Shown piece by piece: positions 1,150 through 36,361 of a stretch of DNA of 36,361 nt. Numbering within the stretch: position 1 is the stretch's first letter; each line of letters opens with the position of its first letter. Both the position numbers and the translations under genes were made by a program. The notes below the pieces were generated by a model. The model saw only the letters and a list, made by a program, of their open reading frames with translations. It was not told where the DNA came from and ran no database searches. Source of the stretch: Dissophora ornata (lineage: Eukaryota; Mortierellomycota; Mortierellomycetes; Mortierellales; Mortierellaceae); assembly GCA_025201705.1 (NCBI GenBank), contig MU616695.1, positions 17,623 through 53,983 on the forward strand. The letters are read 5' to 3'.

Positions 1150-3231
1150 CTAGTATCCTGTCTCCTCGTGGCTCAAAGACCGTGCCGCGGCTATGTTTCT
1201 CAGAAGAGAGTTCAAAGTCGCTATCTCCTGGAATAGTTCGGTTCTGTCCACTGTGAATCGTGAGAACCCAAAGTCCACGAAAAAGAATTTGGCGTTCGGA
1301 CCACGGTGCTGCATGACTATATTCTGGGGTCGGATATCGCCATGAACTACACCCAGCTCATGGATAGCAGACATGGCCTCCCGAATCTTTATCGGGGCAG
1401 AGTCATCCAAAAGCTCCTGACTGACGTCTGTCCCAACAAAGTCGATCACCAGCAGCATCTCCAGGCCATCCGCAATGCCAGCAAGCCAAAGCTTAGGAAT
1501 GTGTCGACCTTGAAGTCTATGCAACTTTTGGTAAACCTTCGCCTCATTCTTGAGCTCCTCTGCAACTGAGTATTTATTCCAGATGTCGCATTTCTTGACG
1601 ACAACGTCATGACCCCGCCACGACGCTTTATAGGTTTGTGCACGTTCATTGTGCGAGATCAGTTCCATCCTCTCAAAATCAGGAAGAGTCACCCGACTGG
1701 TAGTCTTGGAAGATGTTAATTGCGTCCTGCGAGAATCAAAACTAGAAGAGCTTTACATTAGGCGTTGACTTAAAAATACCAAGTAGGATGTAGCACTTAC
1801 GGGAATGATATGAAGGCCTTAAATGAACTCTTTTTTCTTTTGTCTGATCTGGCAGCTCGCCTCCGTTTGTCGTTACGTCGCTCATCTCTGAGCATTTGAT
1901 CCCTTTGAATATCGGTCGGAGGGTCCAAGGGCTGTTCATCAGCGTTTGCCTGTCGTATGAACCACACGTAACATTGGAGAGAAGGTTCCGTGATGTCGAA
2001 GGCAATCGGGGGTGAAATTATGACGTCGTTCGCACATTGTTCCCCTCACTTCATGAACCACGTCTGTTCATAAGTTGACAAAATGCCATATCGATATCCA
2101 TTCAGTCGTATGTACAGTCGACTCCTGTTATAATGACAGAGATTTGAAGGTGTCATTATAAGCGATTGTATGGGAATGTCGTTACAACGAGAAGAAATGC
2201 ATAGTAAAAAAAATAATGAGAATTCAAGTGGTGTCACCATTATAACGGGAGTTGACTGTATCCATATGCTTGATTGACTGAGTTCTGTGCGCCCCCTGCA
2301 TACCCAGACCTGTCCTGCTCCAGATAGTCTTGCACCAAATTCTGCGACCGTAAGATGACCGGTCTCTTAATCTCAATGGGAAAGAGAGCCGACTCTGGCA
2401 ATTCTGGATCGCTGTTCTTCTTCTGGCACACTAGGTCAGGCTCACCACGTCTGAGCCTCATAATTTGGGTGGTCTCTGCAAAAGGAGTCAGGACTTTGAC
2501 TGATCCGAAGTCGTGCTCGACGAGGTCGTGAAGCATTGATTCGGGTCGAAATTTTCGGTCTTCCATGAACCGTGGACGTTCATATTGAAGGGTTGGGTCA
2601 AGCTCCATGCTGCGAACACTGTCCAAGATATCCCAAGACCGAGGTGAACACGATAGTGAAACAGTGCTGAGAGAAGAACTCAGACCAGCGCTCCGTTCTT
2701 GTTGTTCCCCAATAATAGCATCAGGCTCGCACCGCAAGAAATCGAGCACCGAGATGAGGCCTAAATGATGATTGCGTGGGAATAAAGTTAGTGCCAATAA
2801 AGCGAATGAATAGTTACTTTAGTGCTCGCGTACATTGAATTGGTACGACGGACAAGCATATTGGCGACAATTCAATGAAGAGTGCGTCTGCATTACTTGG
2901 CGGGGGTCGCTGGACGGTGATGTGGATTGCCTTCCTCAAGCAGGTCCTCAGAAAACACCTTGGACAGGCGAGTTCCAGAGCTGAGTTTCTTCTTTTCCTC
3001 CAGGATGTTGAGTACAATGGGAAGCTCCTCATCATCGTCGGTGAATGGGATTGAGACGCGCCAGAGGGTGAGGTCCTTGGCATCAACTCCATTGAAAGTG
3101 TCAGGAATCTCAGCCTTGATGGCTTTCTTGAGGTGATCCACTGTTTTCGTTCGGTCGATTTCGACAGAAAAGGCTTGAGATGTCGACTCTCCATCAACAA
3201 GACAGGACAGGGTGAAGTGGTTGTCAGCCAT
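1150..3231 (-). pseudogene. Crinkler (CRN) protein with nuclease and kinase modules, disrupted
   Basis: CRN proteins of fungi and oomycetes join a ubiquitin-like header to variable effector domains that usually act in nuclei. Exon 1 (3231-2897) starts MADNHFTLSCLVDGE and carries the header; its usual closing motif (HITVQRPPP) is present but one base out of frame, consistent with one extra G near 2930. A 136-nt intron (2761-2896) has a CTAAC branch point. Exon 2 (2760-1801) encodes a PD-(D/E)XK fold: GEPDLV, then PIEIKRP, then NQAYGY and YRYGILSTYEQTW. It is split by a TIR element (2115-2259) carrying a stop and has a TGA at 2046-2048 where CGA is likely ancestral. A 59-nt intron (1742-1800) leads to exon 3 (1741-1150), an intact compact kinase with VVVKK, HGDIRPQN and VDFG. 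With three lesions it is best read as a pseudogene; one or two could be sequence errors. Confidence 0.75.
2115..2259. mobile_element. 145-bp MITE-like TIR element with TA target duplication
   Basis: Both ends are inverted repeats: the left end reads CAGTCGACTCCTGTTATAAT and the right end, on the other strand, CAGTCAACTCCCGTTATAAT, differing at two positions. TA lies on both sides (2113-2114 and 2260-2261), the target duplication typical of Tc1/mariner-pogo elements. The interior has no coding capacity, so it is a non-autonomous copy. It sits inside the nuclease module of the Crinkler gene; removing it with one TA restores an uninterrupted frame through the conserved GY...LRYG region. No autonomous relative is in the window. 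Confidence 0.8.
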
Positions 3232-3500
3232 GGTGTTGAATAGACTGAAAGATGAAAGAGAGACGGCAAGGGTTGTAAAGAAGGTGTGGAATGAAAAGAA
3301 AACAAAGAGGAAAGAAAGTAGGTGTGGAAAGAATGAAAAAAAAAGAAGGCGAGAGATGAAAAAAAGGAAGTGGTGACGAAGGCGATGAAGGCGTGAGAAT
3401 GGTGGCAAAGGCGAGGGAGAGTAGTAAAGAAAGGAATACAGTAGCAGATTCGTTTAAAGAGGACAATGGGTGCAGCGTGTGACATCTCAAGATTGATCAA
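3232..3500. promoter_or_regulatory. Crinkler 5' region, strand-biased pyrimidine/purine tract
   Basis: Upstream of the Crinkler start the minus strand is a long C/T-rich stretch (purine-rich on plus, 3240-3430), with runs such as TTTTTTTTC and CTTTCC. Pyrimidine-rich leaders next to start sites are common in fungal promoters. No clear TATA box was seen. Long open frames here on the minus strand come from composition only. Confidence 0.35.
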
Positions 3501-5369: not shown

Positions 5370-6412
5370 ATGGGAGTCACAGGCTTTTACCAAGCTCTTA
5401 AGAAGCGCGGGCTCGATCCACCTCCTACGGATATCCAGGAATGCAAGAACAAGCTTGTCGATATTGATCTATTCGGCTCGTTTTACGGGTGGCTCGTAGG
5501 ACAGATCACGGGTGACTATGGTCCCACCAAGGTTGCTAAGGTCAGCCATGCGGTGGCAGCGCGACTAGCCAACGATTTCACACCAGTACAATGTACCATC
5601 CGCATTGACGGCGCTCCTTCCGTGCAGAAGCAGAAGGCGCATATCGAACGAAAAAATTCGCGGGCGGCAAGCTTCAGGGCCCTGGAAGCGAATTTGAAGG
5701 CCATGGGAACGAAGTCTGCAAACGGCCAATGGACATCGCAAAGCCTCATGCGTAAAATAGAGAAGGGTCTCCACAGCGTGTTTCGATTCGAGTCAGCCGA
5801 CAAGAACACAATGCGGGATATCTTCCGAGAGAAAGGATTCCAAGTTTGTGAATGCAAGACCGAAGCCGACGTCTGCATTGCACGCACTCTGGCCGGATCT
5901 TCGCCTGATCGGCTCGTGGTATCGGCCGACTCTGATCTGTTGATCTACCAACAGGTTGCCGGAGTTTTACGGCCAATCATTCGTGGGTCCTCGTATGCAT
6001 CGTACACGAAAGACGATGTCACTCGCGTTCTCCAGCTCCCAAGCGCGGACCACGTTACGCTCCTTGGGGTCGTTTCGAAAAATGACTATTGCGAAAACAT
6101 TTCGGGGCTTGGGATCGTCAGGAACCTCGAGCTCATCCGCAGCATTCCACATAACCCTGACCTCCGGTTGATGCTCCAAGTGTACATAGTTGCAGCGGCT
6201 GTCAAGATTCAAGCGCCTATAGATCCAAGCCGATTCAGGCCGTCGGAAGAAATATTTTTGGACCTCAAAGAAGACGTGCTTCAGCCCCAAGCAGGAGACG
6301 AGGCCGCTGATGAGGACATGCCCATGCTTGATTTCGATGACGCGGTTCATCTGTTCCGAACAAACAAGGGGTTGCGCTTTTCGGTTGCTGCAAGGCAACA
6401 TGCAGATAGAAG
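5370..6412 (+). CDS. XPG/FEN1-like (PIN-fold) nuclease module, exon 1 of a fused gene
   Basis: Structure-specific nuclease of the FEN1/XPG superfamily. The protein starts MGVTGFYQAL, the typical MG-initiated N-terminus. All the acidic positions expected of the two-metal site are visible: D31/D33 (LVDIDLFGSFY), D80 (IRIDGAP), E165/D167 (TEADVCIA), D187 and D189 (VVSADSDLLIY) and D239 (KNDYCENISGLGI, matching the DYC.I.GIG helix-hairpin-helix entry). There is no internal stop in 347 codons. Exon 1 ends at a GTAACC donor; the 97-nt intron (6413-6509) has CTAAC 35 nt before the acceptor and joins in phase to a lysine-rich linker and a TnpB/Fanzor-like part. It is shorter than cellular FEN1 (about 380 aa) and lacks an evident PCNA-binding motif. 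A host repair function seems unlikely; it looks element-associated. A free-standing product ending at TAA 6415 is possible if the intron is retained. Confidence 0.8.
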
Positions 6413-6509
6413 GTAACCCAAGCACGATTGAGTCTCATTCATGCAAATTGAGCAGTAAAGTCCAACTCTCTAACACTCCCGTACGATTATGTATGTCTTC
6501 GATGACTAG

Positions 6510-9153
6510 TACGCCCCATTTCTATGTTGCAAGAGGTTCAAGGCGCAACCAGTTCCATCGCATATTTTCGGATAAGGAATCGATCCTCGCCCCAAACTCG
6601 ATTGACATACTGAGCGCTAGACCCCGCCAGCGCCCACGGCTACGTGCAGGGCCAGGTACCAAGGACCGGAAGAAAGTCGTGCGGAAGCAGCAGCAGCAGC
6701 AGAAGAAGAAGAAGAATAAGAAAAAGAGGACGAAAGGAGCCCTGCCGAAGAAAACAAAGGAAGCGGATCCATCGAACCCACGCCCCACTCATGTAACTGC
6801 AGAGAATCACCATCTTCTCAAATTTCATCTCACCAAGACCCTTGCCGTAGAGAGTATACATGCCAACATGAGACGAATGAACACGATCTCGGACGACGAA
6901 AGCAAGCTCCTTTCGGAGACGCTCTGGTCGACGGTGGTTATTCTGAACAGGATCCAGATGCACATGTACGAAGCCATTGCACTGGATATCTTCCAGCTAA
7001 TTGCTTCCTGGGATACAACAACAGACGACGTACAGAGGAAGGCCGACATCCAAGACATTCTCGACAACAAAGCCTTTTACTTTGCACTCGACACTCTATT
7101 TTGCAGTGGTCAACAAGGGCGACAGTCTCAGGCTGCTCGGGCGATGAATGCTCCCACACGCACTATAGGAACTCGGAACAGGCCTATTGTCTCACCTGCT
7201 GCCCCACAACCGCAGCCACAACCGCAACCACAGAGTGCAGCCGCCCATGCACAAAATGCCTTTGACAGTTACAAGGCATTCACCGGGTTTGTCCCATTTC
7301 GTCAACAGCAACAAGGGTTCTTCCCTTCGACAGTTTCAAGGTTGGTTGCTTTGGCTGTGTACAATGCTGTTCGGGCTCATTACTACGGCGCAAAGGTAAT
7401 AACATAGTGCAAGACGCGTGTGATGGTTCGTGTTAAGAGCAATTGACTAAGCCATTTATTATTGATAACTCTTTAGTTTCCAGATGACATGGAGCGTCCC
7501 GACGACGTCAACGCCATTGATTTCTTCTTTGAGAAGAATGCTCAACATCGCGAGTTTGCAGACTTTGCTAAGGTCAAGTTTGCACATGGCTTCGTGTTCC
7601 TGTTAGAAGCGGACCTTGCCCACATATTCTTCCCCGACGCCGAAACAAAGCCGATTATATCTCGAGAACTAGGAGCCATAATCTCCTCAGCTGCGGAAAC
7701 CGAGGTCGTCAGCAAGAAAACGGTCCTCATCGAGAAGCTGCTGTATAGACTGGACCCGGTGAAACGGTTCGACGGGTTCTGCGAAAAGGCCTCGTTTCAG
7801 AGTGACAGGCGGCGCCGGACAAAATTCAAGCTCCGAGGCACCATTTGCACGAACGGCCTCGTACTGCATCTCCTTGCTCACGATACGACAACAACGCGGC
7901 GCAGAGCCACACCTCTGCCACACCAAATCTCCAAGGGCGATGACGATGAAGACAATGAAGACGGTGATGAAGCTCTGTTTCGCGATTTTAATGAGGACTG
8001 CGAACTCGACGACGCGTTTCTTGAGAGCGGCGGGACCATTCAGATTCAGCAAAGTACAAGCCTTGTGGCAGCGGGGGATCCTGGTAAGAGGAGGCGCATC
8101 AGGGGTGTGTCTCCAGAAGCAGAAAGTTCAAAGCGACAGAGGTTCTCGACACCTCAGCCTCTACCTGCAGGCCAGGATGTGGCTACTTCATCATCCATCC
8201 CGACTCCTACGGCTAGCCCAACTTCCAGCCTAGGGACGATTGAAATCTCTAAAGCACCATCAACCGGAAGCGAGGATCAAAGATGCTGGAAAATGTGGAC
8301 GTGCGTTTCAGCACACCAAATGTTTGTCCGCCAGCAGATACCGTGGTCATTGGCATCGATCCAGGCGAGGTTTACACCATGACAACCACGAGAGTCGACC
8401 CTTTGTCCACGGAAAGAGAGTCGGTGCGCATTCACAGATCGTTCCTTTATCGCCTATACACGACCTTCAGGCGCCTCTTGGGAGAGCAGAAGGCAGTCCA
8501 CGTAATTTGCGAACTTGAGGCAAGGATACCCTTATTTGGAGTGGAAACTATCGAAGAGTATTTTACCTCGATGCACCTGGCACCACAGTAAGAATCCGCC
8601 CCCCGCGATTTTTATAGTAGTCGATGGATAGTAAGGAAGCGCTGGGACGTAAAAAAGGCTCAGCAGACGACAAATGACTATGCAATCGCAGCCTTACTCG
8701 GTCTGGCTAAGGCTTGCAGGCTGGCCCACAAGTGGTGTTTGCGATAGGACTGGTTTCGTTTGATTCGCAAGCAGGTTTACCAAGCAAGCACGGCGTACTT
8801 TAGATGTTCGTCAGCAAGGTGTGTTACGTGACTGACTAAGCAAAAAAAAAAAAAAAACGGGTCGCCATCCTCCCTTCTTCCCCCACACAGTTTCACAGTT
8901 TCACATCCTCACTTCTTTTTTTTCTCTTGACAGGCGAAATCTTCAGGGTACACTGTCATAGGAATGCACAGGTACTACACGAGTGCTCGGTGTCCCAGGG
9001 ATCAGTGTTTGGCGTTCCTGGAGAACGACAAGCGCCGGTGATAGTAGCTGTCAGATGTACTGTGGCCGGGACATCGTGGGCTCCGAGGACATTGCGACTG
9101 TGTGCCTGTCGCAAATCCAACGCCAGTGTCGACCGGCACCTTTGACCAAATAA
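6510..9153 (+). pseudogene. TnpB/Fanzor-like RuvC and zinc-ribbon protein, decayed
   Basis: Continues the gene above. Exon 2 (6510-7395) has a Lys/Gln linker (NLS-like, 6660-6760) and a helical region; an 81-nt intron (7396-7476) joins in phase to exon 3. Exon 3 has KFKLRGTICTNGLVLHLLA, comparable to the DG..V segment before RuvC in TnpB, then an acidic linker. A one-base loss in an A-run near 8281 breaks the frame. After it come RuvC-I (VVIGIDPGEVYT, Asp at 8358) and RuvC-II (VHVICELEAR, Glu at 8511). Further on are WDVKKAQ, VVFAIGLVSFDSQAGLPSKH (another frame, with a stop), an intron (8819-8933), GYTVIGMHRYYTSARCPRDQC (half a zinc ribbon), a frameshift near 9035 and YCGRDIVGSEDIA (RuvC-III Asp at 9070). 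These motifs occur in TnpB/Fanzor order. At least four lesions make the 3' half nonfunctional. The family assignment is motif-based. Confidence 0.6.
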
Positions 9154-19445: not shown

Positions 19446-22400
19446 CTACAACGGCGCCTGCCCGCCCACGGCCACACGTTGCTCCAAGAGCTGTGTATTC
19501 AGACGATTCAGTCCTTCAACGTCTTTCATTGAGGTGCTGATCAAACTAAGCGCGTCTGGCGGAGATCTCCAATGCAACCGTGCATTATACTCGTTCCCAT
19601 CTTCAGTGACCAGCCACAGTCGAACCGACCCATCACCACAGCCAGTCGCCAAACAATCGCCGACAAGTATTGCTTTCCAGGCGATGCTGCAGACGGTATC
19701 AAGGGTTTGAATTACTAGCTGACGATGACCTGTTACAACGTCCCACAGCCGCACTGTCTTGTCAAGACTGGCAGACGCAATCTGATCACCTTTTGGCGAA
19801 TACACGACGCTCGAAACACTGTAGCTATGGCCGCTCAGTGTGTGGTGGCAATCTCCTGTTTCAACATCCCATAGCCGCACTGTGTTGTCCCAACTGCCAG
19901 ATGCAATCTGATCACCTTTTGGTGAATACACAACGCTCCAAACATAGCCGCTATGGCCGCTCAGTGTGTGACGGCAATATCCTGTTTCAACGTCCCACAG
20001 CCGCACTGTCTTGTCAAGACTGCCAGACGCAATCTGATCACCTTTTGGCGAATACACGACGCTAAACACAACGCCGCTATGGCCGCTCAGTGTGTGGCGA
20101 CAATCTCCTGTTTCAACGTCCCAAAGCCGCACTGTCTTGTCCCGACTGCCAGACGCAATCTGATCACCTTTTGGCGAATAAGCGACGCAAAAAACACTGT
20201 CGCTATGGCCACTCAAGGTGTGGCGGCAATCTCCTGTTTCAACGTCCCACAGCCGCACTGTCCCGTCATCGCTGCCAGACGAAATCTGATCACCTTTTGG
20301 CGAATACATGACNNNNNNNNNNNNNNNNNNNNNNNNNNNNNNNNNNNNNNNNNNNNNNNNNNNNNNNNNNNNNNNNNNNNNNNNNNNNNNNNACTGTCAT
20401 GTCGCCACTGCCAGACACAATCTGATCACCTTTTGGCGAATACGCGACGCTCAAAACACTGTCGATATGGCCGCTCAGTGTGTGGCGGCATTCTCCTGTT
20501 TCAACGTCCCACAGCCGCACTGTCTTGTCGCCACTGGCAGATGCAATCTGACCACCTTTTGGCGAATACACGACGCTCCAAACACTGTCGCTATGGCCGC
20601 TCAGTGTGTAGCGGCAATCTCCTGTTTCAGCGTCCCACAGCCGCACTGTCTCGTCCTTGCTGCCAGACGCAATCTGATCGCCTTTTGGCGAATACACGAC
20701 GCTCTAAACACTGTCGCTATGGCCGCTCAGTGCGTGGCGGCATTCTCCTGTTTTAACGTCCCACAGCCACACTGTCTCGTCCTTGCTGCCAAACGCAATC
20801 TGATCTCCTTTTGGCGAATACGCGACGCTTGTTACATAGCCGCTAATAGCCGTTCAGTGTGTGGCGGCAATCTCCTGTTTCAACGTCCCACAGCCGCACT
20901 GTCCCGTCCTGACTGCCAAACGCAATCTGATCACTTTTTGGCGAAAATACGACACCTCTGCCACGATAGCATATGGTCATAATTTTGTCCCAGTCCAAAG
21001 TCGTATAGATACTGACGTTGCCATTATCAAGTCTGACAGCAAATCTTTTGCCATCTGGTGAATATACGCATGATTGCACCATGTCCTGTTCTTGGAGAAA
21101 TGGCAACTCGCCAAACTCTACACCTGACATCTGGGCCTTGCTCAAATCTGCTCCAAGCAGCGAAACGCCACGGAGGACGACATTACTCATGTTAGCTCCT
21201 TGGAACTGAGTAAATTCGAATGCGCCATGACTCAGATTAGCTCCTGGAATATATATCCCTTGTAAATCTCCATTGAATTGCACTCCTGCCCTGACCAATA
21301 TCGTAATCGCATTGGCTGCTGCCAACCGCACAGCTTTGACTTCTGCCACATTAGTTTTCGAACGCTCAATGACTGAGAGTAGCTGTTTCTTGAAGAGAGG
21401 CTCCTGATAGACTCGTTCCGCCAAAAATTGAAGGATCGAAGGCTCACCAACATAGCTTTTCCGTCCCAGAGGCGAATAGAGCACCGGCTGCCCAACTGCC
21501 GCAAACATTTCATGCGAATGATCCTTAGTCTCAAATATGAGGGTAGAACTGGCGCTCCTTCGTCCGAACTCGGTTGTTGTTGGTGTCACCCACTCTGGTT
21601 CATTATTTCCTCTATCCTGAGGCTCGAATATTGCGCGTGCCAGACTGTATTCAAGAAGTGATTGATGGAGAAACCGGTACTGGTTGCCGTTGCGCTTGAG
21701 AGGACAAGCCTCACGCAAAAGTTTCTTCTCTCGACCTTGGCCAAAGAGCTCTTCTTTCCATGTGCCTTTATCCTTGGTTGACGAATATACAACCACTGGG
21801 TTACCCGCTTGTCTCTCGTAGATTGCTACAGCCAATTCCTTCAAGAGCGCAACTCCTTGCTGCATGAATCCCTCGTCACACAGGCTCTGCAGCGCTTCCG
21901 TGTCTAGGTCGCCCACAATCTCGAGCAGTCGTATTTTGCCACGCTCCAACCATTGCTCCACGAACTGATCGTACAGCGCAACTCTAGTGATACGGGTCGC
22001 TGAGAAAGGTTGTCCTGAATGCACCATGTGCGGCAATACCTCCAATGACAGGGTTAACAGAAACGGGTTCGTCACCAAGTCCTTCAGGCCTTGAATCCGA
22101 TCGAGTGCTTGCAAGTAGTCAGTGGCCGACCACTCCACACCTCTTTCAGGAGCATATTGCTTGATATACTCCTGAATCTGACCCTTCGAGAAAGGTGCAA
22201 TAGCTGCCTCCTGAAACAACGACAACTCCACTTTACGATTACGGTCTACTGGCTGGAACATATCTCGATAGTCGGCGCCAAGGTACTCACTGCGGCAACT
22301 AATCACCATCCGAGCGCGCCATCCTCCTTCTTGATTTAGTCGGTTACTCATGTAAAAGTTCTGCATCTGCCGATATTCGTCGTACCCATCGCAAATCAGG

Positions 22401-24910
22401 ATGAACTCGCGGTGGCCCTTCAACTCTTGGATTTGAGGCTTCGTGAACCCTTCATTCCGTAGTTGTTTGGTAATCATATCATGTTCAGGATTCTGAATGG
22501 CTGCCAAGGTGATAAAGAGCGGAATATGGCCATCATGTCTCCTGTAGTTGCTCCACAAGTCACACTCGAGTTCCTGGTTGAAGGTAGATTTTCCCGCCCC
22601 AGAATCACCTAGTATCAAAAACACCTTTTGTTCACTGTCTAGGAACTCCTTGACCTTGTCCATCAAAGGGAAAAGCGCATCGTCGCGGGCCTTCAGGTTA
22701 GCCTTAGCTAGTGGAGAAATATACACAGCTTTGCCTTTGCTTTTCTTTTTTAATCGCAGCCTTTGCAGCTTGCGCAAACTAGCTTCAACGTCGACCGTAT
22801 CCTGAACGCGATTGAGAAGGGATGGAGACAACAGCGGATGCAAGGCAGGTTTCAATGGATACGGACCTGGACCCTCCTTTCGACAATCTTGGCAAAGCGC
22901 CCTTTTCTTGGCACCCCCATCCGTTTCCAACTCCTGGAGCAAGGTTTCGGCAGCTGAGCATTTAAATGGCTTGATCTTGTTAGTGTTTGGCTATAAACCA
23001 TTACAAAATCAGTGGTTATCCATAAAGTGTCTCATTACACTTCTGTCTTTCATACCTTGCATTTCACTTCCGGATAGAACTGCTAGCTGCATGAGTATAT
23101 CCATGATCAACTGCTTAATCTTAGTGTGCTGACCCCAGACTGCATCGTTTTGATAAATCTCTCCTAGAAATGCGACAGCACTTTTGCGAGAGTCGTCATC
23201 GCACTCCGTATTAGCGGCCAGCTCTCCAAGCCGTTGGCATACTCCCCATTGGAATGCAGGATCACGTCGACAGGGCGCTTCACAGATCAGTCTCTTGAAT
23301 TCCGTGAGCTGACCATTCTGAAGCAAGACATCTGCATCGCGTAATGCTGGATACCACGCACGTTTGCGACGGAATTCGAGGCCTTCCTTAAGACAATCCA
23401 GAAATTGCTTCCCGCTCTTGGCTAGTGCACTGAAATCATCGTACGCGTCTTTGGCTAGCGTAAAGACCACCGATGCTCCGGCTAGCCCTTCTTGAATATG
23501 TTCCAAGCCTTCGATAAAGCCGTTGAGATCTACGGCTTTCACTGCGCTCACCAACCCTGAAACACCCTTAACAACCTTTCCTGTGCGACGGCGTGTGGCC
23601 TGCCACGGTGTCTCATCATCTGGGACGTATAATAAAGCTTGAGCGGCGTAGGCGGCTTGATAGACCAAGTACGGGTCAGTGCTATCTCCTAACCCTTGCA
23701 AATACACTGCGAGAGGCGCATGGATATTTTCTCGGTCTAGATCCTTGATCTTGCTATCGGCCATGGCATCCAAGACGTGTGAGACCGTTAATGCTAACCG
23801 ATAGATATAATCTGGCGACTGCTTGTGAGTGGATCTTAAGCGCGTGCTGATGAGATCCAGTATCTTGACCAGATTTTCAGCGTTGAGATGGCCAGGGCGA
23901 GCGTGTTGGACGGGTTGTGCAAGTCCTTCGAGTAGATTGAGATCCAGCAATTGAGATTTTTCGATGCCGTGAAAGAGTTGCTGGAGTAGCTGTTGAAGCT
24001 CATCCCTCTCGAAAACTGGGACCAAGCACACGACTTCTGCGACCATATTCGCATCCTTGAGTTTCTCGCTAGCAAATTCTCTGAGCAGCTTGATCGCCAA
24101 CGTCTCCAACCTTTCTTGCTCATCGGTATTTTGTGCTGTCGCATTTAGCCAGGTTTGCTCGGCTAGATCGAGTGAATCCTCGGTGGATTGCGAAGACTGT
24201 AAGAGACCAAGACAGTGGACGAGCTGCGATGTGCTCTTGAGACGCTCATCAACCTTCGGTAACTTGTTTATATCAGGAGGTTGATGCATGTCCTTTGCAA
24301 AAATGTGTGCTGGGATGATTGCAATGTCACGGCTTGGTGTTTCCTGAATCAGAGGAAGACGAGGGGTAGGAGGAGGGGGAGGAGGAGGAGGAGTTGGCAT
24401 TAGGTGAACGGCAGAAAGATCCACAGTGGTATTCGAAGCGGGAGGTGAAGCAACGTGGTCCGGGAGAGAGGGAGATTGGCCTGGCTCTTGAATATGTCCT
24501 CTATACGAACATATTGATTTACACGATCGCAGAACATTTAGGTATCGGAGTTTTATAAACATCCAGCAATAAAAACCATCGACGCCTACTTACCCCCATT
24601 TTCCCGAATCCTTGTAACAGGCCTTAGCCTTGTCGCGACGTTTCAAGTTGTCCAAAAACTCGCCAAGTTCGAAATAGGTGGAAGCAATTTCATTGCGCAT
24701 TACTCGATCTTCAAGGCTCACTGACGATACAAGAGCCTTTCTCACGGATGTTCTTATGCGGGCGAGGGCCGTTTGTGCTTCGTTGCAAAACGTTAGAGCT
24801 AGTTCAGAACTCTTTGCTTTGCGTGCGTTCTCTAAATGGGCATTGGCAGCCTCCAACGCGGCTTGCGGCGAGAGAACGCTTCTCCATGGCGAAAATGGAC
24901 TGCTGAGCAT
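19446..24910 (-). CDS. NACHT NTPase with pentapeptide and WD40 repeats (NLR-like), disrupted in the WD40 array
   Basis: Fungal NLR-like STAND protein. Exon 1 (24910-24594) has TPR-like helices (SPQAALEAANAHLENARKAK; FELGEFLDNLKRRDKAKACY). Exon 2 (24500-23056) has a Pro-rich stretch and a long helical domain; a 102-nt intron (22954-23055) enters exon 3 in phase. Exon 3 encodes NACHT with Walker A GDSGAGKST (about residue 703), Walker B ILICDGYDEY and RFLHQSLLEY, then pentapeptide repeats (GANLSHGAFEFTQFQGANMS), then 42-residue WD repeats of 126-bp period. Defects lie in the WD array: an extra base near 20846 (stop at 20843), TGG to TAG at 20704-20706, and an 80-N gap (20313-20392). The last five blades and the C-terminal tail are open (20309-19446). 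NACHT proteins oligomerise when WD repeats bind ligand; here a truncated NACHT protein, or an assembly error, is possible. Confidence 0.75.
19730..20840 (-). repeat. Tandem 126-bp WD40 repeat array
   Basis: About nine near-identical units encoding YSPKGDQIASGSxDxTVRLW and DVETGDCRHTLSGHSxxVxx. Spacing of the TTTTGGCGAAT landmark is exactly 126 bp outside the gap (for example 20169 to 20295, and 20431 to 20557). Confidence 0.9.
20313..20392. other. Assembly gap (80 N)
   Basis: Unknown bases inside a WD repeat. The landmark spacing across the gap is 136 bp, ten more than the repeat period, so the gap size is an estimate and the true number of repeats is unknown. Confidence 0.98.
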
Positions 24911-25822: not shown

Positions 25823-27800
25823 ATGTTCCGTGGTGCATCCTTCCTCCTGCTCCTGAATTGGGTCTGCATCGTCGTCTGGCTAATCTCCTCCTTCGAGGCT
25901 GCTTCCGCCACAATCGTGGTCCTTGTAAGCCAGCGTTAACTTTAAAAAAATCCCCGTTTCCAGGAACACTCACTCGCTCACACCACCTCTTTCTTACGAC
26001 CAAAGGCGACCAATGACACATACGTCGACAGGATAGCTGCCTTTGGCCCCAGGATACCAAAGGAGGGGATCGCTCTCAATCTGATAGCCATCGAAGCCCT
26101 CGACACAGAGCAGGAGACGACTGCCTGTCGCCCTGTCTCGGGAGCACCGGAGAATGGTTCCTGGGCAGCCCTTGTCGAGCGTGGAGGTGACTGCAGCTTC
26201 ATAAGCAAGGTCAGGAACATGCAAGCCAGTGGTGCCAGTGCGGTTATTGTTGGTGATAACCAGCACAGTGGACTGGTTACCATGTATGCGCGCGGTAAGA
26301 ACGCAGCCCACGCAAGCACATGCCCTCTTTTTCTCGCGCGCCCATGGTCATCCCTTCCTGAAAGGCTAAATGTGCAAAAAGGATACAGAGAATGGGTGGA
26401 ACCATGTCGCGTGTTGTGTGTGCTATCCGATCACAAGGATGGCGATAAAACAAAAAAAAAAAAGCCTCGCCTTCCTCTCATCAATAGACGCCATTTTGAC
26501 TACTCATGGCTTTGTGTGGCCTGCACCTCTCTCACGTCTTTCTCCGGCGGATAATGAGTAAAGGGGTGGAGGGTGGACACGGATCAAAGACTGAATGCGA
26601 CATGCGACAAAGCCTATTTGACCTTTCCTTTTGCCCCTGTCGTCGACTGTTGCTCGCCATGGATGTCTCCCATCCCCTTCATTCCTCTCTTTTTACATCG
26701 ATTGTCTTTTTGTTATTTTGATAGCATATTCATGTGTCTCGCCACGTCCGTATGGTTGTGTGGACTCAAAGGGTTTCCGACTTATAATCCCTCCGATTTT
26801 GACCTTCCTTTTGTTTCGCTTGCGGTCCGCAATAGAGGACACAGCGGATATTCTCATTCCATCGGTCTTTATTGCTCAGAACCACTACCGAGAACTACGG
26901 TACTTTGGCGTGGAGTTTGGAAAAGGGGTTTCAATCAAGATGACTCCAGACGATATGAATTGGTAAGAAACAGAACTGCGGCGTGATCCCAGTCCACTTT
27001 TGCTTTCTGCAGGGGGAGGACTTTATCAAACTTCTTGACGGACCATACAATAGGTCGTTGCTGTATGTGATCGTCATCATTATCCTCTCGCCGGCGCTTG
27101 TTGTCTTCTTCCTCTACTTTCTCTGGAGGGTCCGTATTCGTCAGCAACACGTAGCGGACCAAGCGCCGCCTGAGGTCGTCACGAATCTTCCAATCAAAGT
27201 CTTTTATGCGGCCAAGCTTAAAGAGAATGACCCAGTCGAGTGTGTCATCTGTCTGGAAGAGTTTGAGGATGAGACGGAGCTACGTGTGTTGCCATGCAAG
27301 CACGAATACCATGTGGCATGCATCGACAGTTGGTTGACGACACGCAAGAAGTTTGTACGTTCTCTCATGTTTTCCATCCTAAAACTAGCTGAAAGCGCAT
27401 AGGACCATGCCATTCTGACTTCATTCATTTTTAGTGCCCGATCTGCAAACGAGATATTTGCGCAGCGACAGAGACAACACCGTTACTGTCCTCGGTGAAC
27501 CGTGATAACCGATTGACATCGTCCAGGCGTTCTCCGCGGGCCACAAATATACCTCCAGTATCAACTTTACTCTCCTCGTCATCAGCAGAAGCATCGTCGT
27601 CTTCATCGGCACCAGCATCGACTTTGTTTGGTCCTCGAGTTGCGTCGTCATGGCCGCAGCATCGTCAAAGTATGAGACCTAATGCCTTCCATGAGCCAAC
27701 TCTACAGACGGGGACAAGTTCAGCAGCAGGAAGCGGAGTATCAGTGAGGCGGCAGCAGGGAAATCTTTCCACGACGGAGGAAGTCTGCCGCAGGGTTTAA
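25823..27800 (+). CDS. PA-TM-RING E3 ubiquitin ligase (RNF13-like)
   Basis: Membrane ubiquitin ligase of the endosome/vacuole pathway type. Exons: 25823-25924, 25964-26294, 26836-26962, 27013-27354 and 27435-27800. The start MFRGASFLLLLNWVC gives a signal peptide; the next upstream in-frame start is in the CT-rich leader. The protease-associated domain spans exons 2-3 (WAALVERGGDCSFISKVRNM; ASAVIVGDN; DILIPSVFIA). One membrane segment in exon 4 (LLYVIVIIILSPALVVFFLY) precedes a RING-H2 finger with all ligands: CVIC, CKHEYHVAC and, after an intron, CPIC. The C-terminus is Ser-rich and disordered. Oddity: exon 3 ends in phase 2 but exon 4 needs phase 0 at the only good acceptor, so the G-run at 27012-27016 may carry an indel or the splice differs. 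Intron 2 (541 nt) is long for this window. AATAAA at 27833. Confidence 0.85.
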
Positions 27801-32711: not shown

Positions 32712-35700
32712 CTACCACCGCAGCTCGCCGGTAACCAGTCGCAAAAAGATGTAGGCAACACTGCCTACAAACCTAAACGCCGCCAAGAATGCGACCGACC
32801 ACAACACGAACGCAAGATAGGCCTTGGACCGGTCATCATACGTTCCCGCCCTATTATTGCCCGCATATGTGATGATGCTGACCAGCAGTCCATTAGAAGT
32901 GCACCACAGCAGAACCAATCTCGTTCTGAATGCCTTGTAATAATCCTCCTGCTTTGTTTTGGCGTCTCTTTTCTGGGTCGTCTCCTCTGTCTTCGCCATT
33001 AGTGAATCGAGCGCGAGTTGGTATGAATGGTTGATGTCATTGTCCTCCGTGGGGACATCGACAGTTATCTCGCCGCCGGAACCTTCTTTTGAACTTGAAT
33101 TGACCGCGCCTAGATCCATATTGTCGATATTGTCGCCTTTGGTACCCCAACTCACATCATGGGTGTTGCAGAATGCGTACACATTCAGCACATTGACATA
33201 GCTATTGAGAATTAAAAAAAAAAATGGATATAGTTAGCTTCCGCAAGCTGGTCTTGGAAAATAATTAATAACCTAATAGCACTGTCTGTTACCTTGGCAT
33301 CATGCAGAGGTATTGCACAAAACTCGTGACCATATGCCACGGTTCCAGGTACAAGACACTGCCAAAGAAATAGAGACCGTAGGTCGAAGCAAGCGACAAG
33401 ATGACGTTCCTGAATGTTGGGTCTTTGATCACGGCTGAAAGTGTTGTCTCACCGTTAGCAAGAGCATGCGAGATTCCAAGGTAGGTCAACCAGATCGCAC
33501 AAAAGGTCATGTAGACCATCAGGAAGGCAAAGAAGACCATGGCTGCCGTGTACAGAACCCGGGATCCTGTAGGTCGGTTGCCCATGCTGAGAATAAACAC
33601 AATGATGACCAGGAACTCGTAAAAGTATTTTAGAACAATGAATACAATTTTGAAAATATCACTGCGGCCGAACGGGCTGTTTTCAGGAAACGTCAACGAG
33701 TTGGCTAGGATATAGAATGTGAGGTAGATGTTTGCCTATAAAAACATTAACGGTGAAATGCTGGCAAGGTTAGACATCTAGGCGGCTAGAATATGGAATG
33801 TCGCGATTCAGCTGGAGCCAGTATCGCTTACGATTGCAAACCAACTGAAAAAGAGGCTGAGGATATTGTACACCAATTGAAGGTGGAATAAAAGTTTTCT
33901 ACAGGGCAAAGACAAGCAAAAATGTATCAGCAAAACATGTATTACGACGGGAGACAGTTCCTTGCAGAATACCACTATTATTACCTCCAATAAGCGTGGT
34001 CGCTCTTGTAGATCTTGCCAAAGTGGAAAACAGAGAACAAAGCCACGAAGAACGTTCCATTCAGCCATCGACGACGCTGGCTGATTAGTTCAGGGACCGT
34101 GTCAGGTACATCGGTCTCAGCCCATGCTGCCTTGACATATCGCAACGTCCAGGCATAGTTGCGCTTGGCGACGAGCTCGAAGCACAAGATGCGGTCCTCT
34201 GCCAGGTACATGTTTGCGTCGAAAATCCCAGAGTCTGGCGTAGGTTTCTCGCCTTTAAAGTAACTGATCAATGGACCCTCGTTCGGAGTTTCTGGCGAGG
34301 TCAAGAGCGCCTTATATCGATATGCCGAGAATGCTCCAGGGAGGACAGAGATGTATCCAATGACGGACTCGAGCGGTTTGTCCAGGATGTTGTTCTGCAA
34401 CGGGACCGGAAATAGTACTTAGAGAGAAGAACTACATTCGACTGTATTATCTAAATGACCAACGAATTGTCCATACCATCTTGTACTCGAAATTCTGTGT
34501 TGCCACTAAAGGATTGAGTAAGTTCTTGGCGCCAGCTCCCTTGACAGGCTTGATCTCTCCACAGGCGCCTGCGACATTAGAGTTGAGATCAAAGGCCTTC
34601 CAAAGCTGATAGATCGAAGTTGGTCCTGGTCGTGTACCGACATCCAGCAGAACGCAAACGCGAGGATCGATGACTGGTCCAAAGGCATTGAAGAACCAGC
34701 GATGAGAGTTCAGTTTCTTGGCGTTCTTTTCCTTCAAGCAGAACATCATCTGCACCGGGACGTAGTCGCTTGACTTGGACTCGACAATCTTCATGTGTGG
34801 ATCAATTGTCACTTGTGTCGTGTACTACCGGAATTGGAAGAAGGTTCGGCGTCAGTTGCCTGCCTGACACCCTTTGAAGCCCACAAGAGAATAATGAGAA
34901 AGTTCAAAATAGCGCTCTTTGCCATACCTCATAAATGTGCGCTTGTACTTCTTTCCCCTTGACCTCTCGTTTGGCTACACCCTCCTGATAAACGCCCATG
35001 GATGCAAGATAATTATAGACCTGGGCGTCACATTTCTTGCGCCCATCCGCCACGATGCAGACCACGACCTTTTGCCATGACCCTTCACCCCACGTTTTAG
35101 AGTTGTTCCTAGAGCAGAGGTGACGAATGTTTTTCATGATACCATGCATGGTCTCTGCAAACAACTTGACGCTCTCCTGCATGGTAGAATATCAACGAAC
35201 ATATTAGCCACTGCATGAACGATTTAGACAGGATATCATACTACGCCTCGAACATTGGCTTTACGTTGTACATCGTGACTACGATAAACAGCTCCGTCTC
35301 TCTGTTCCACATGGCTGGTCGCAAGGTGTAGTTCTCAGTCTTGAACAGGTCTGGATCACAGGTCACGGCTGTATATCGCATAAACTCCCATTCGTGACCC
35401 TTTTGTAGTGTCTGCTTCACCAGATAGTGTGGAGGGACAGGACAGTCGAGGACGAGGTTGTCGTTGGTGAGCTCAACGACTTTTTTGGTCTTGTAACGCC
35501 TCTCCTGTCGCTCAGGTATTTCGCCCAGGGGTAATGGAGCAGGAGGTATGACTGGGGAATCTGGAGGAGGAGGAGGAGTGAAGTCTTGCAGTTGCACTGA
35601 GAAAATGGGTTCTTGTACAGGCTCAGGCTCGGACTTGGGACGTTTGGGGTGTTGGTGTGGGTAATAAGAGTATGCGTTTTCAGTGTCGAGGTCCGGATTA

Positions 35701-36059
35701 GAGATGATGGAAGCTCGAGACTTGAGTGACATTACAGAGTAGACAGACTGATGTCGAGCGAGGTTGGTTGGGTCCCGAATGAATGTTGAGTAGGCGGGAA
35801 TGTCGAATGCAGGCGTCCCTGAGCCGGGTTGCTCCAGGTCTGGGATCCGAGAGGATGAGAACTGAGGCTGGCCCCTCCATGGTGTCTGTACTGGCTGTGG
35901 TTGTTGTGGTAGCTGTGGTATGGTTGGTGTCCGCTGCTGTCTGGGATGGAGGGATTGTAGAGGGTGAGAAAGCTGCTGAGGCTGTGGCTGCGGCTGTTGT
36001 GATTGAGTAATGAGGGATGAGCGGTCGCTCTCCTTGTTGGGCTGTCGATGGCGGGACAT
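32712..36059 (-). CDS. Chitin synthase (class I-III type)
   Basis: Plasma-membrane GT2 glycosyltransferase polymerising GlcNAc from UDP-GlcNAc. Seven exons in phase sum to 934 codons: 36059-35265, 35176-34928, 34824-34477, 34394-33985, 33898-33832, 33735-33293 and 33201-32712. A long Pro/Gln-rich disordered N-terminus precedes the family N-terminal domain ([10 protein letters not shown], then [17 protein letters not shown]). Catalytic motifs: [31 protein letters not shown], the EDR in [13 protein letters not shown], and [11 protein letters not shown]. Membrane segments follow ([55 protein letters not shown]) and two near the C-terminus ([40 protein letters not shown]). No myosin, cytochrome b5 or DEK_C domain, so not class IV-VII. 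The start [15 protein letters not shown] is chosen; the frame is open to another ATG at 36194, whose His/Pro-rich extension looks like leader. Confidence 0.92.
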
Positions 36060-36361
36060 CAGTGCGTTGTTTTTGTGGAGAAGGACATGGACATGGGGAT
36101 GGGGGAAGCGATGAGGAATGAAGAGAGGATGCAATGGGTCATGCCAACCATCTAATAACCAATCTTCAGCCGACGGTTCAGGCACCAGCGGCAACCTTAT
36201 TTCAAACAGGATTTGTATAGCGTCTGTCTCGGTCCGAGGCCGGGTGAATGAGAAACTACTCTCGAGCTAGGCCATGTGTTCCTGCGCTACAGGACTACTA
36301 GCGGTGCGGGGCAAACTGGCGTCGTGCACATGTAATGCATTCTAGACGTGGGCGACCCCCC
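36060..36361. promoter_or_regulatory. Upstream region of chitin synthase
   Basis: Minus-strand 5' region of the chitin synthase gene. An in-frame ATG at 36194 means the protein could be 45 residues longer. No TATA box seen. Confidence 0.4.

Follow-up and report, generated by a model that had tools for sequence, protein, structure and literature searches.

The window analysed here, a stretch of 36,361 nucleotides from Dissophora ornata (contig MU616695.1), carries at positions 5370–9153 of its + strand a locus of a gene family, encoding an XPG–Fanzor fusion, that appears to be a novel variety of genome cutter carried by transposons. We assign an about even chance to the reading that this locus belongs, as a decayed copy, to a transposon family whose gene product joins a nuclease of the XPG/EXO1 fold with a Fanzor-type protein and would act as a cut-and-resect enzyme for retention or homing. 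A preliminary description of the window had proposed that an XPG nuclease and a TnpB/Fanzor protein were fused in a mobile element. For the family this proposal stood, with an XPG part followed by a Fanzor part in 17 of 132 match clusters, both active sites kept in the aligned open copies, a TNB-type ribbon and element ends in the copy L024. It did not stand for the Fanzor half of the window copy, which is a pseudogene.

The XPG-type half

The genome searched comprised 31.4 Mb in 968 contigs. At the protein level, exon 1 of the window found 43 matches in its own genome, fragments included, and 20 loci around such matches (L018–L037) were compared. Alignments kept open-frame copies only, namely 11 rows for the XPG part (from the window and the 20 loci) and, for the Fanzor half, 8 rows for the region with RuvC-I (R) and 9 for the last exon with the ribbon (Z); the middle region is termed M.

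All 11 open XPG copies share E167, D169, D186, D188, D236 and D82 as well as M1, and 10 of the 11 share D39; a Met-Gly start is likewise found in 10 of 11. We assume for these acidic positions the roles that their counterparts have in FEN1, and we take the NDY..NI.GLG motif of this half to resemble the H2TH region. Against solved structures the family profile matched RAD2 best, with an expectation value (E) of 4.3e-10, and also FEN1, EXO1 and XPG; all 33 sequences listed for the profile belong to the RAD2/FEN1/EXO1/XPG families. With Pfam XPG_I, matches at E <= 1 were obtained for 9 of the 11 members (best 2.3e-6). Both members tested against fen_arch, the archaeal FEN model, matched at E 2.9e-7 and 8.7e-8, far below its cut-off. 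The predicted structure of the L022 XPG region had a predicted local distance difference test (pLDDT) score of 84.5, and its closest solved structures were human EXO1, which ranked first (TMq 0.71), and FEN1 (TMq 0.67). By sequence profile and structure model, an XPG fold with a FEN1-type acidic active site is thus recognised across the family.

Exon 1 of the window (5370–6413) is open over 348 codons, opens with MGVTGFYQALKKRG and extends beyond the NDY..NISGLG motif. All seven acidic residues are present, in the numbering of the preliminary description D33, D80, E165/D167, D187/D189 and D239. Its identification there as an XPG/FEN1-type exon holds, as the family profile matches exclude chance similarity. 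Searched alone, exon 1 gave a weak Pfam match (XPG_I_2, E 0.15) and so did the window R stretch against profiles (best E 0.004), and the case therefore rests on the family. The profile searches proposed for exon 1 were hence weak for the single exon and clear for the family profile.

Alternatively, the XPG half might mature the guide RNA or act as a structure-specific partner on RNA or an R-loop, with the Fanzor half alone cutting DNA. The RNA nuclease XRN1 (9e70, rank 44) indeed is among the XPG fold matches, and the conserved 3′ region with a hairpin behind the gene, described below, would fit such a role. However, DNA flap and 5′ exonucleases rank best among the matches by both fold and sequence. 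TnpB-type proteins, moreover, process their own guide RNA, which counts against a separate maturation enzyme, and we consider this explanation unlikely.

The Fanzor-type half

In the better copies, the M, R and Z exons lie downstream of the XPG part on the same strand. R contains a D-x-G motif whose RuvC-I Asp, D244, is invariant in 8 of 8 copies. Z has an invariant Glu (E13) six residues before the first ribbon Cys (C20), the four Cys of a CxxC...CxxC ribbon and a RuvC-III Asp in an [HQ][RK]D motif, each in 9 of 9. In Fanzors, according to the available text of Yoon et al. (PMC10711439), the RuvC-II Glu has moved to a position six residues ahead of the ribbon, which is the placement found in all nine Z copies. 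Bao and Jurka (PMC3627910, available text) give D-X(125,275)-[TS][TS]XX-[C4]-X(5,50)-RD as the TnpB/Fanzor motif. L022 conforms to it: D244 and YTSKKC are separated by some 190 residues when the count is carried over the intron. The ribbon is preceded by [TS][TS] in 9 of 9 copies and the final RD is present in 8 of 9, L024 having KD. The window copy departs from this motif.

Profile searches of the C-terminal half, as called for by the preliminary description, bore out its TnpB/Fanzor assignment. Pfam Cas12f1-like_TNB (PF07282) matched Z in all nine aligned copies at E <= 1 (best 3e-14), the first Z member scoring 48.9 bits against a cut-off of 26.3, while the next best-shared family, C1_1, was found in 7 of 9 (best 1.7e-4). 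In the genome, 54 of 59 matches lay above the cut-off. NCBIfam guided_TnpB matched 3 of 3 ribbon-bearing queries, at scores below its whole-protein cut-off. Among Protein Data Bank (PDB) chains, Z matched best TnpB-like L79 (1.4e-7), LaTranC (2.9e-5) and SpuFz1 (1.4e-4), with unrelated zinc fingers entering the match list from E 0.01. Comparison by hhalign with eight TnpBs from plasmids and phages gave 98.6% over 65 ribbon-region columns. When a global alignment with these eight proteins was forced, the RuvC-I aspartates coincided. TnpB-type identity of the second half is supported by these sequence motifs, the ribbon and their order rather than by fold.

One assignment has to be revised. VICELE, previously taken as RuvC-II, aligns instead, as we read the alignment, with the (S)I.DIES.LPPL segment of the family, and the RuvC-II equivalent (VGLGQF in the family, VFAIGLVSF in the window) lies at about 8738–8800.

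Gene structure and constraint

Exon 2 of L039 has no Met anywhere, and exon 3 of L023, L026, L028 and L039 has none before the conserved start. These exons hence need an upstream exon, and it is there that the XPG exon lies. Such exon logic demonstrates a single-gene layout for the predicted XPG and Fanzor halves. Two neighbouring genes within one element, XPG-like and Fanzor, could in principle be translated separately instead. An apparent exchange of the XPG part between L021 and L024, with similarity ending near the end of exon 2, would agree with this, as would the XPG-less copies L038 and L041 and an upstream Met in the exon-3 frame of L022, L029, L031 and L038. The Met-less exons 2 and 3 named above nevertheless speak against separate translation, which we regard as very unlikely.

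Selective constraint was estimated as the ratio of nonsynonymous to synonymous substitution rates (omega), and three comparisons of diverged XPG or R pairs that gave no synonymous divergence (dS) were dropped. For L022 and L038, omega was 0.20 in R, 0.34 in M and 0.05 in Z; L023 and L039 gave 0.45 in M and 0.44 in R, and the two XPG-less copies L038 and L041 gave 0.26 in M and 0.67 in R. In the XPG part omega ranged from 0.46 to 0.79, all pairs including a stop-bearing partner. Since only stop-bearing pairs were close enough, XPG constraint rests on residue conservation among copies of about 40% identity.

These values also bear on the possibility that the XPG exon is a non-functional passenger captured by a Fanzor element. 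The XPG-less copies keep their Fanzor half, as seen from the L038/L022 and L038/L041 values above, which would be expected of a dispensable passenger. On the other hand, copies that are only about 40% identical retain the XPG active site; the XPG-part omega against stop-bearing partners does not decide. A mere passenger thus appears highly improbable to us.

Over 10 copies, distances between XPG parts correlate with those between Fanzor halves (r 0.67, p 0.0009). Without L030 and L033 the correlation drops to r 0.25 (p 0.10), and without L028 in addition to about zero. As it vanishes without these three copies, co-inheritance of the halves is not proven.

Element ends and 3′ region

Near-identical copies occur on different contigs, with L023 and L039x sharing 98% identity over 3.6 kb before an abrupt 3′ divergence and L038 and L041 96% over 2.5 kb. 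In the copy L044, an internal deletion has joined the XPG part directly to the 3′ end. The right-end 30-mer TTCGGTGACGTAATTTTCGCGCCCATTGTC occurs 72 times in the genome at <=3 mismatches and not once in the reversed control. Of its 23 exact matches, 16 were examined. Nine of these loci have about 0.7–0.8 kb in common, L091 is shorter, L085, L088 and L098 share less, and contig ends truncate L090, L095 and L097. Just beyond the right-end motif the sequences diverge. A left inverted repeat, AGGACAATGGGCGCGAAAATT, is recognisable in 5 of the 16 loci, and the left-end 30-mer has 17 genome occurrences with none in the reversed control.

Among the compared gene loci, the left repeat is found in L024, L032 and L035. 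In L024 it precedes the XPG start by 553 bp; there the first 72 bp are identical to a short element and the final ~150 bp also match short elements. The inverted repeat measures 21 bp; the right repeat of L024 lacks 8 bases, with 15 bp left. With both ends kept, L024 delimits an element of about 4.7 kb, and elements of about 0.8 kb without the XPG–Fanzor gene carry the same ends. One such gene-less element (L035, 680–1506, on the XPG strand) stands directly before the XPG start of another copy, a nested insertion within the family. Directly upstream of the XPG-less Fanzor-type copy L038, a Crypton-like protein with NDC10_II and GCR1_C domains is encoded (L038:2–1690), which we presume to be kin to tyrosine recombinases.

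With XPG–Fanzor as the only protein recognised between the L024 ends, and with short elements sharing these ends, the fused protein could itself be the transposase that excises or copies the element with its two nuclease sites. In keeping with this, a Pfam scan that covered part of the L024 frames gave no match in six further L024 stretches (from open reading frames of at least 80 codons on both strands), and none in three stretches of L096. Other points argue against it. A 10-base repeat, the likely target duplication, flanks the short element L096 only, against <=6 bases at other elements. SpuFz1 elements, as far as described in the available text (PMC10432273), likewise have no transposase between their repeats. 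A role as transposase hence is distinctly unlikely.

The 3′ region is conserved as well. Of 37 stretches that follow ribbon exons or lie close to them, 14 contain TTCGGTGACG with <=1 mismatch, that of L035 not following one, and 8 contain a perfect 6-bp hairpin of the GTGTGT type. In a hairpin alignment of nine distinct rows picked by eye, 92.6% of 54 cells are paired, 4 of them changed on both sides. Out of 500 shuffles, none reached the pairing score and none the covariation score; 84 reached the count of doubly changed pairs and all 500 that of pair types. By its sequence, this conserved non-coding region is a candidate guide-RNA region.

Proposed mode of action

A mode of action can be drawn by analogy, though guide, cut and resection, as well as the order of these events, are conjectural. 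The 3′ region would yield a guide RNA, as in SpuFz1 elements, and the Fanzor half would cut the empty site or the allele without the element. The tethered XPG half might then trim or resect the 5′ strands at the cut by EXO1/FEN1 chemistry, and resection would steer repair toward copying from the element-bearing chromosome. In its full form, this describes an RNA-guided selfish enzyme with two nucleases, in which immediate resection by the tethered half follows the guided cut and the element is copied in; the enzyme would belong to an inverted-repeat element with no other recognised protein, and the short elements would supply guides. We put forward this full form tentatively, as somewhat doubtful.

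Several observations weigh against our reading of the family. The alignment rows were chosen for open frames, and the decayed copies in the window and L018 have lost Fanzor residues. R and M gave no significant match to PDB sequences (best E 1.2 and 0.27, unrelated chains); R has no Pfam match below E 0.08, OrfB_IS605 appearing in 1 of 8 copies at 0.14. Structure prediction, proposed earlier for each half, succeeded for the EXO1-like XPG region and gave a pLDDT of 46.7 for R and Z together, and because of this poor model we make no fold claim for R or M. DPG at RuvC-I is described as near-exclusive in Fanzors in the available text of Yoon et al. (PMC10711439), but 6 of 8 copies (L022, L023, L026, L028, L029 and L031) have DLG or DGG and only L021 and L033 have DPG. 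As DPG is a tendency, not a strict criterion, and mostly absent here, we file the family as Fanzor-type, not as Fanzor1. DPG also occurs at RuvC-I of the window copy and L030, and the DPG copies L021, L030, L033 and the window may form a more Fanzor1-like branch.

Further such points come from the elements themselves. XPG-less, 5′-truncated copies exist, two of them with a still-constrained Fanzor half, and the XPG–Fanzor gene of L024 is frame-shifted. Folding energy beats shuffles in four of seven 3′ tails (z −2.0 to −2.6) and does not in three. Nor do the two halves always have a common history: the XPG parts of L021 and L024 are 78% alike and their Fanzor halves 40%, and the DNA similarity stops near the end of exon 2. 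Judged by sequence, these two element lineages appear to have exchanged the XPG part, and on the full form of our proposal its exchange between Fanzor lineages suggests that it is a selected module.

If a Fanzor-type protein indeed has a built-in flap/5′ exonuclease, this points to break processing and homology-directed retention. The separate XPG and RuvC active sites make the retention idea directly testable by mutation. Were it true, nature would provide a precedent for biasing repair by attaching a resection nuclease to a guided cutter.

Layout and decay of the window copy

The exons downstream of exon 1 lie in the order previously described, all on the + strand, and the RuvC-I-like IGIDPGE motif and a C-x4-C half ribbon are present; the frame, however, is broken before RuvC-I. 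A putative intron at 6414–6522, proposed from the frame change, has its GT near 6413 and a tentative acceptor at about 6510–6522. The middle-region exon (6523–7395), the N-terminal part of the Fanzor-like half, has a Lys-rich linker followed by a conserved region and matches L020 and L018. Sequence and frame change suggest a putative GT...AG intron at 7396–7476. The exon preceding RuvC-I (7477–8280) weakly matches the family R profile and loses its frame near the 3′ end relative to L018. Family comparison places RuvC-I (Asp codon 8358–8360) and the segment equivalent to DIES.LPPL at 8290–8588; a decayed helix and the VFAIGLVSF stretch follow at 8592–8800, spread over more than one frame. A putative last intron, GT...CAG by sequence, spans 8819–8933, and family copies likewise have an intron before the ribbon exon.

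The first half of the zinc ribbon (GYTVIGMHRYYTSARCPRDQC) lies at 8934–9041. Here the family NEYYTSKKC reads HRYYTSARC, with Arg in place of the Fanzor-type Glu, and three consecutive stop codons follow inside the ribbon. Its second half with the RuvC-III Asp (YCGRDIVGSEDIA; 9049–9153) is in another frame and shows a single Cys where the family has CxxC. The Fanzor half of the window copy shares 74.8% DNA identity (1757 columns) with the sister copy L018, relative to which it lacks one base shortly before the RuvC-I frame. As L018 is contiguous there with one extra base, no intron is indicated between the exon ending at about 8280 and the RuvC-I frame. L018 is also decayed, with Asn at its RuvC-I position.

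From the frameshift, the stops, the half ribbon and the lost Glu it follows that the Fanzor half of the window copy is, by its sequence, a pseudogene, whereas its XPG half is open and complete. The earlier view that this copy is spliced into a working protein is not supported. Copies with open exons are found elsewhere in the same genome (L022, L023 and L033). The right-end element motif was not seen in the window copy, an Rfam search of the window gave no match, and viral contigs searched with the XPG and ribbon alignments contained no relative.

Neighbouring genes

Upstream of the XPG exon lies a Crinkler-type gene (1150–3453, − strand) with a CRN N-terminal domain (PF20147, E 1.2e-23) at 2893–3453. 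A kinase-like stretch (PF00069) at 1150–1752 on the same strand is perhaps part of the same gene, although this is a guess. Farther downstream, adjacent WD40 repeats at 19446–20703 look near-identical, part of the array reading N, and an NLR-like gene at 20843–22990 (− strand) has NACHT, pentapeptide and WD40 domains. At 25946–27800 (+ strand), a PA domain (PF02225) and then a RING-like C..C segment, recognised by eye, likely belong to a PA-TM-RING protein. A chitin synthase N-terminal domain (PF08407) at 35241–36266 (− strand) fits a fungal host.

Comparison with known systems

The preliminary description knew of no XPG–Fanzor protein, and likewise none was found in searches of the open-access PubMed Central literature, subscription papers and preprints being outside these searches. 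In the same literature, Fanzor was not found jointly with XPG, Mortierella or a PIN domain; Fanzor with 'flap endonuclease' and TnpB with XPG do co-occur.

The RNA-guided nuclease SpuFz1 of Spizellomyces punctatus is encoded in single-gene elements with 30-nt inverted repeats, at 42 gene loci besides 134 'ghost' loci (PMC10432273, available text). Its omega RNA comes from the region by the right repeat, and in this text the authors report no transposase between the repeats and leave open whether help is given in trans. The D. ornata family resembles SpuFz1 in its TnpB-type C-terminal signatures with the alternative Glu, a single recognised gene flanked by inverted repeats, a conserved region from the stop codon to the right repeat, many gene-less short elements and no transposase seen. 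Unlike SpuFz1 as described there, it has an N-terminal XPG/EXO1-fold domain, introns and mostly DLG or DGG at RuvC-I, its inverted repeat is 21 bp instead of 30 nt, its short elements are ~0.8 kb instead of ~550 nt, and its guide RNA is putative.

With TnpB of IS200/IS605 and IS607 the family has in common the RuvC Asp, the CxxC...CxxC ribbon, the final RD and PF07282. In contrast to TnpB, the gene is eukaryotic and spliced, with a long N-terminal region, the XPG fusion and the Glu in the alternative place. Fold, Met-Gly start and seven acidic positions are those of FEN1, EXO1 and XPG (RAD2); unlike these enzymes, the XPG half, whose activity is predicted, is joined to a Fanzor-type half and encoded by a transposon gene present in many copies. 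Finally, PpFz1 likewise is a fungal Fanzor with an extra domain (PMC11423790, available text). There, the extra part, FRI, is inserted in RuvC and binds cyclophilin, whereas in the D. ornata family it is predicted to be an N-terminal nuclease.

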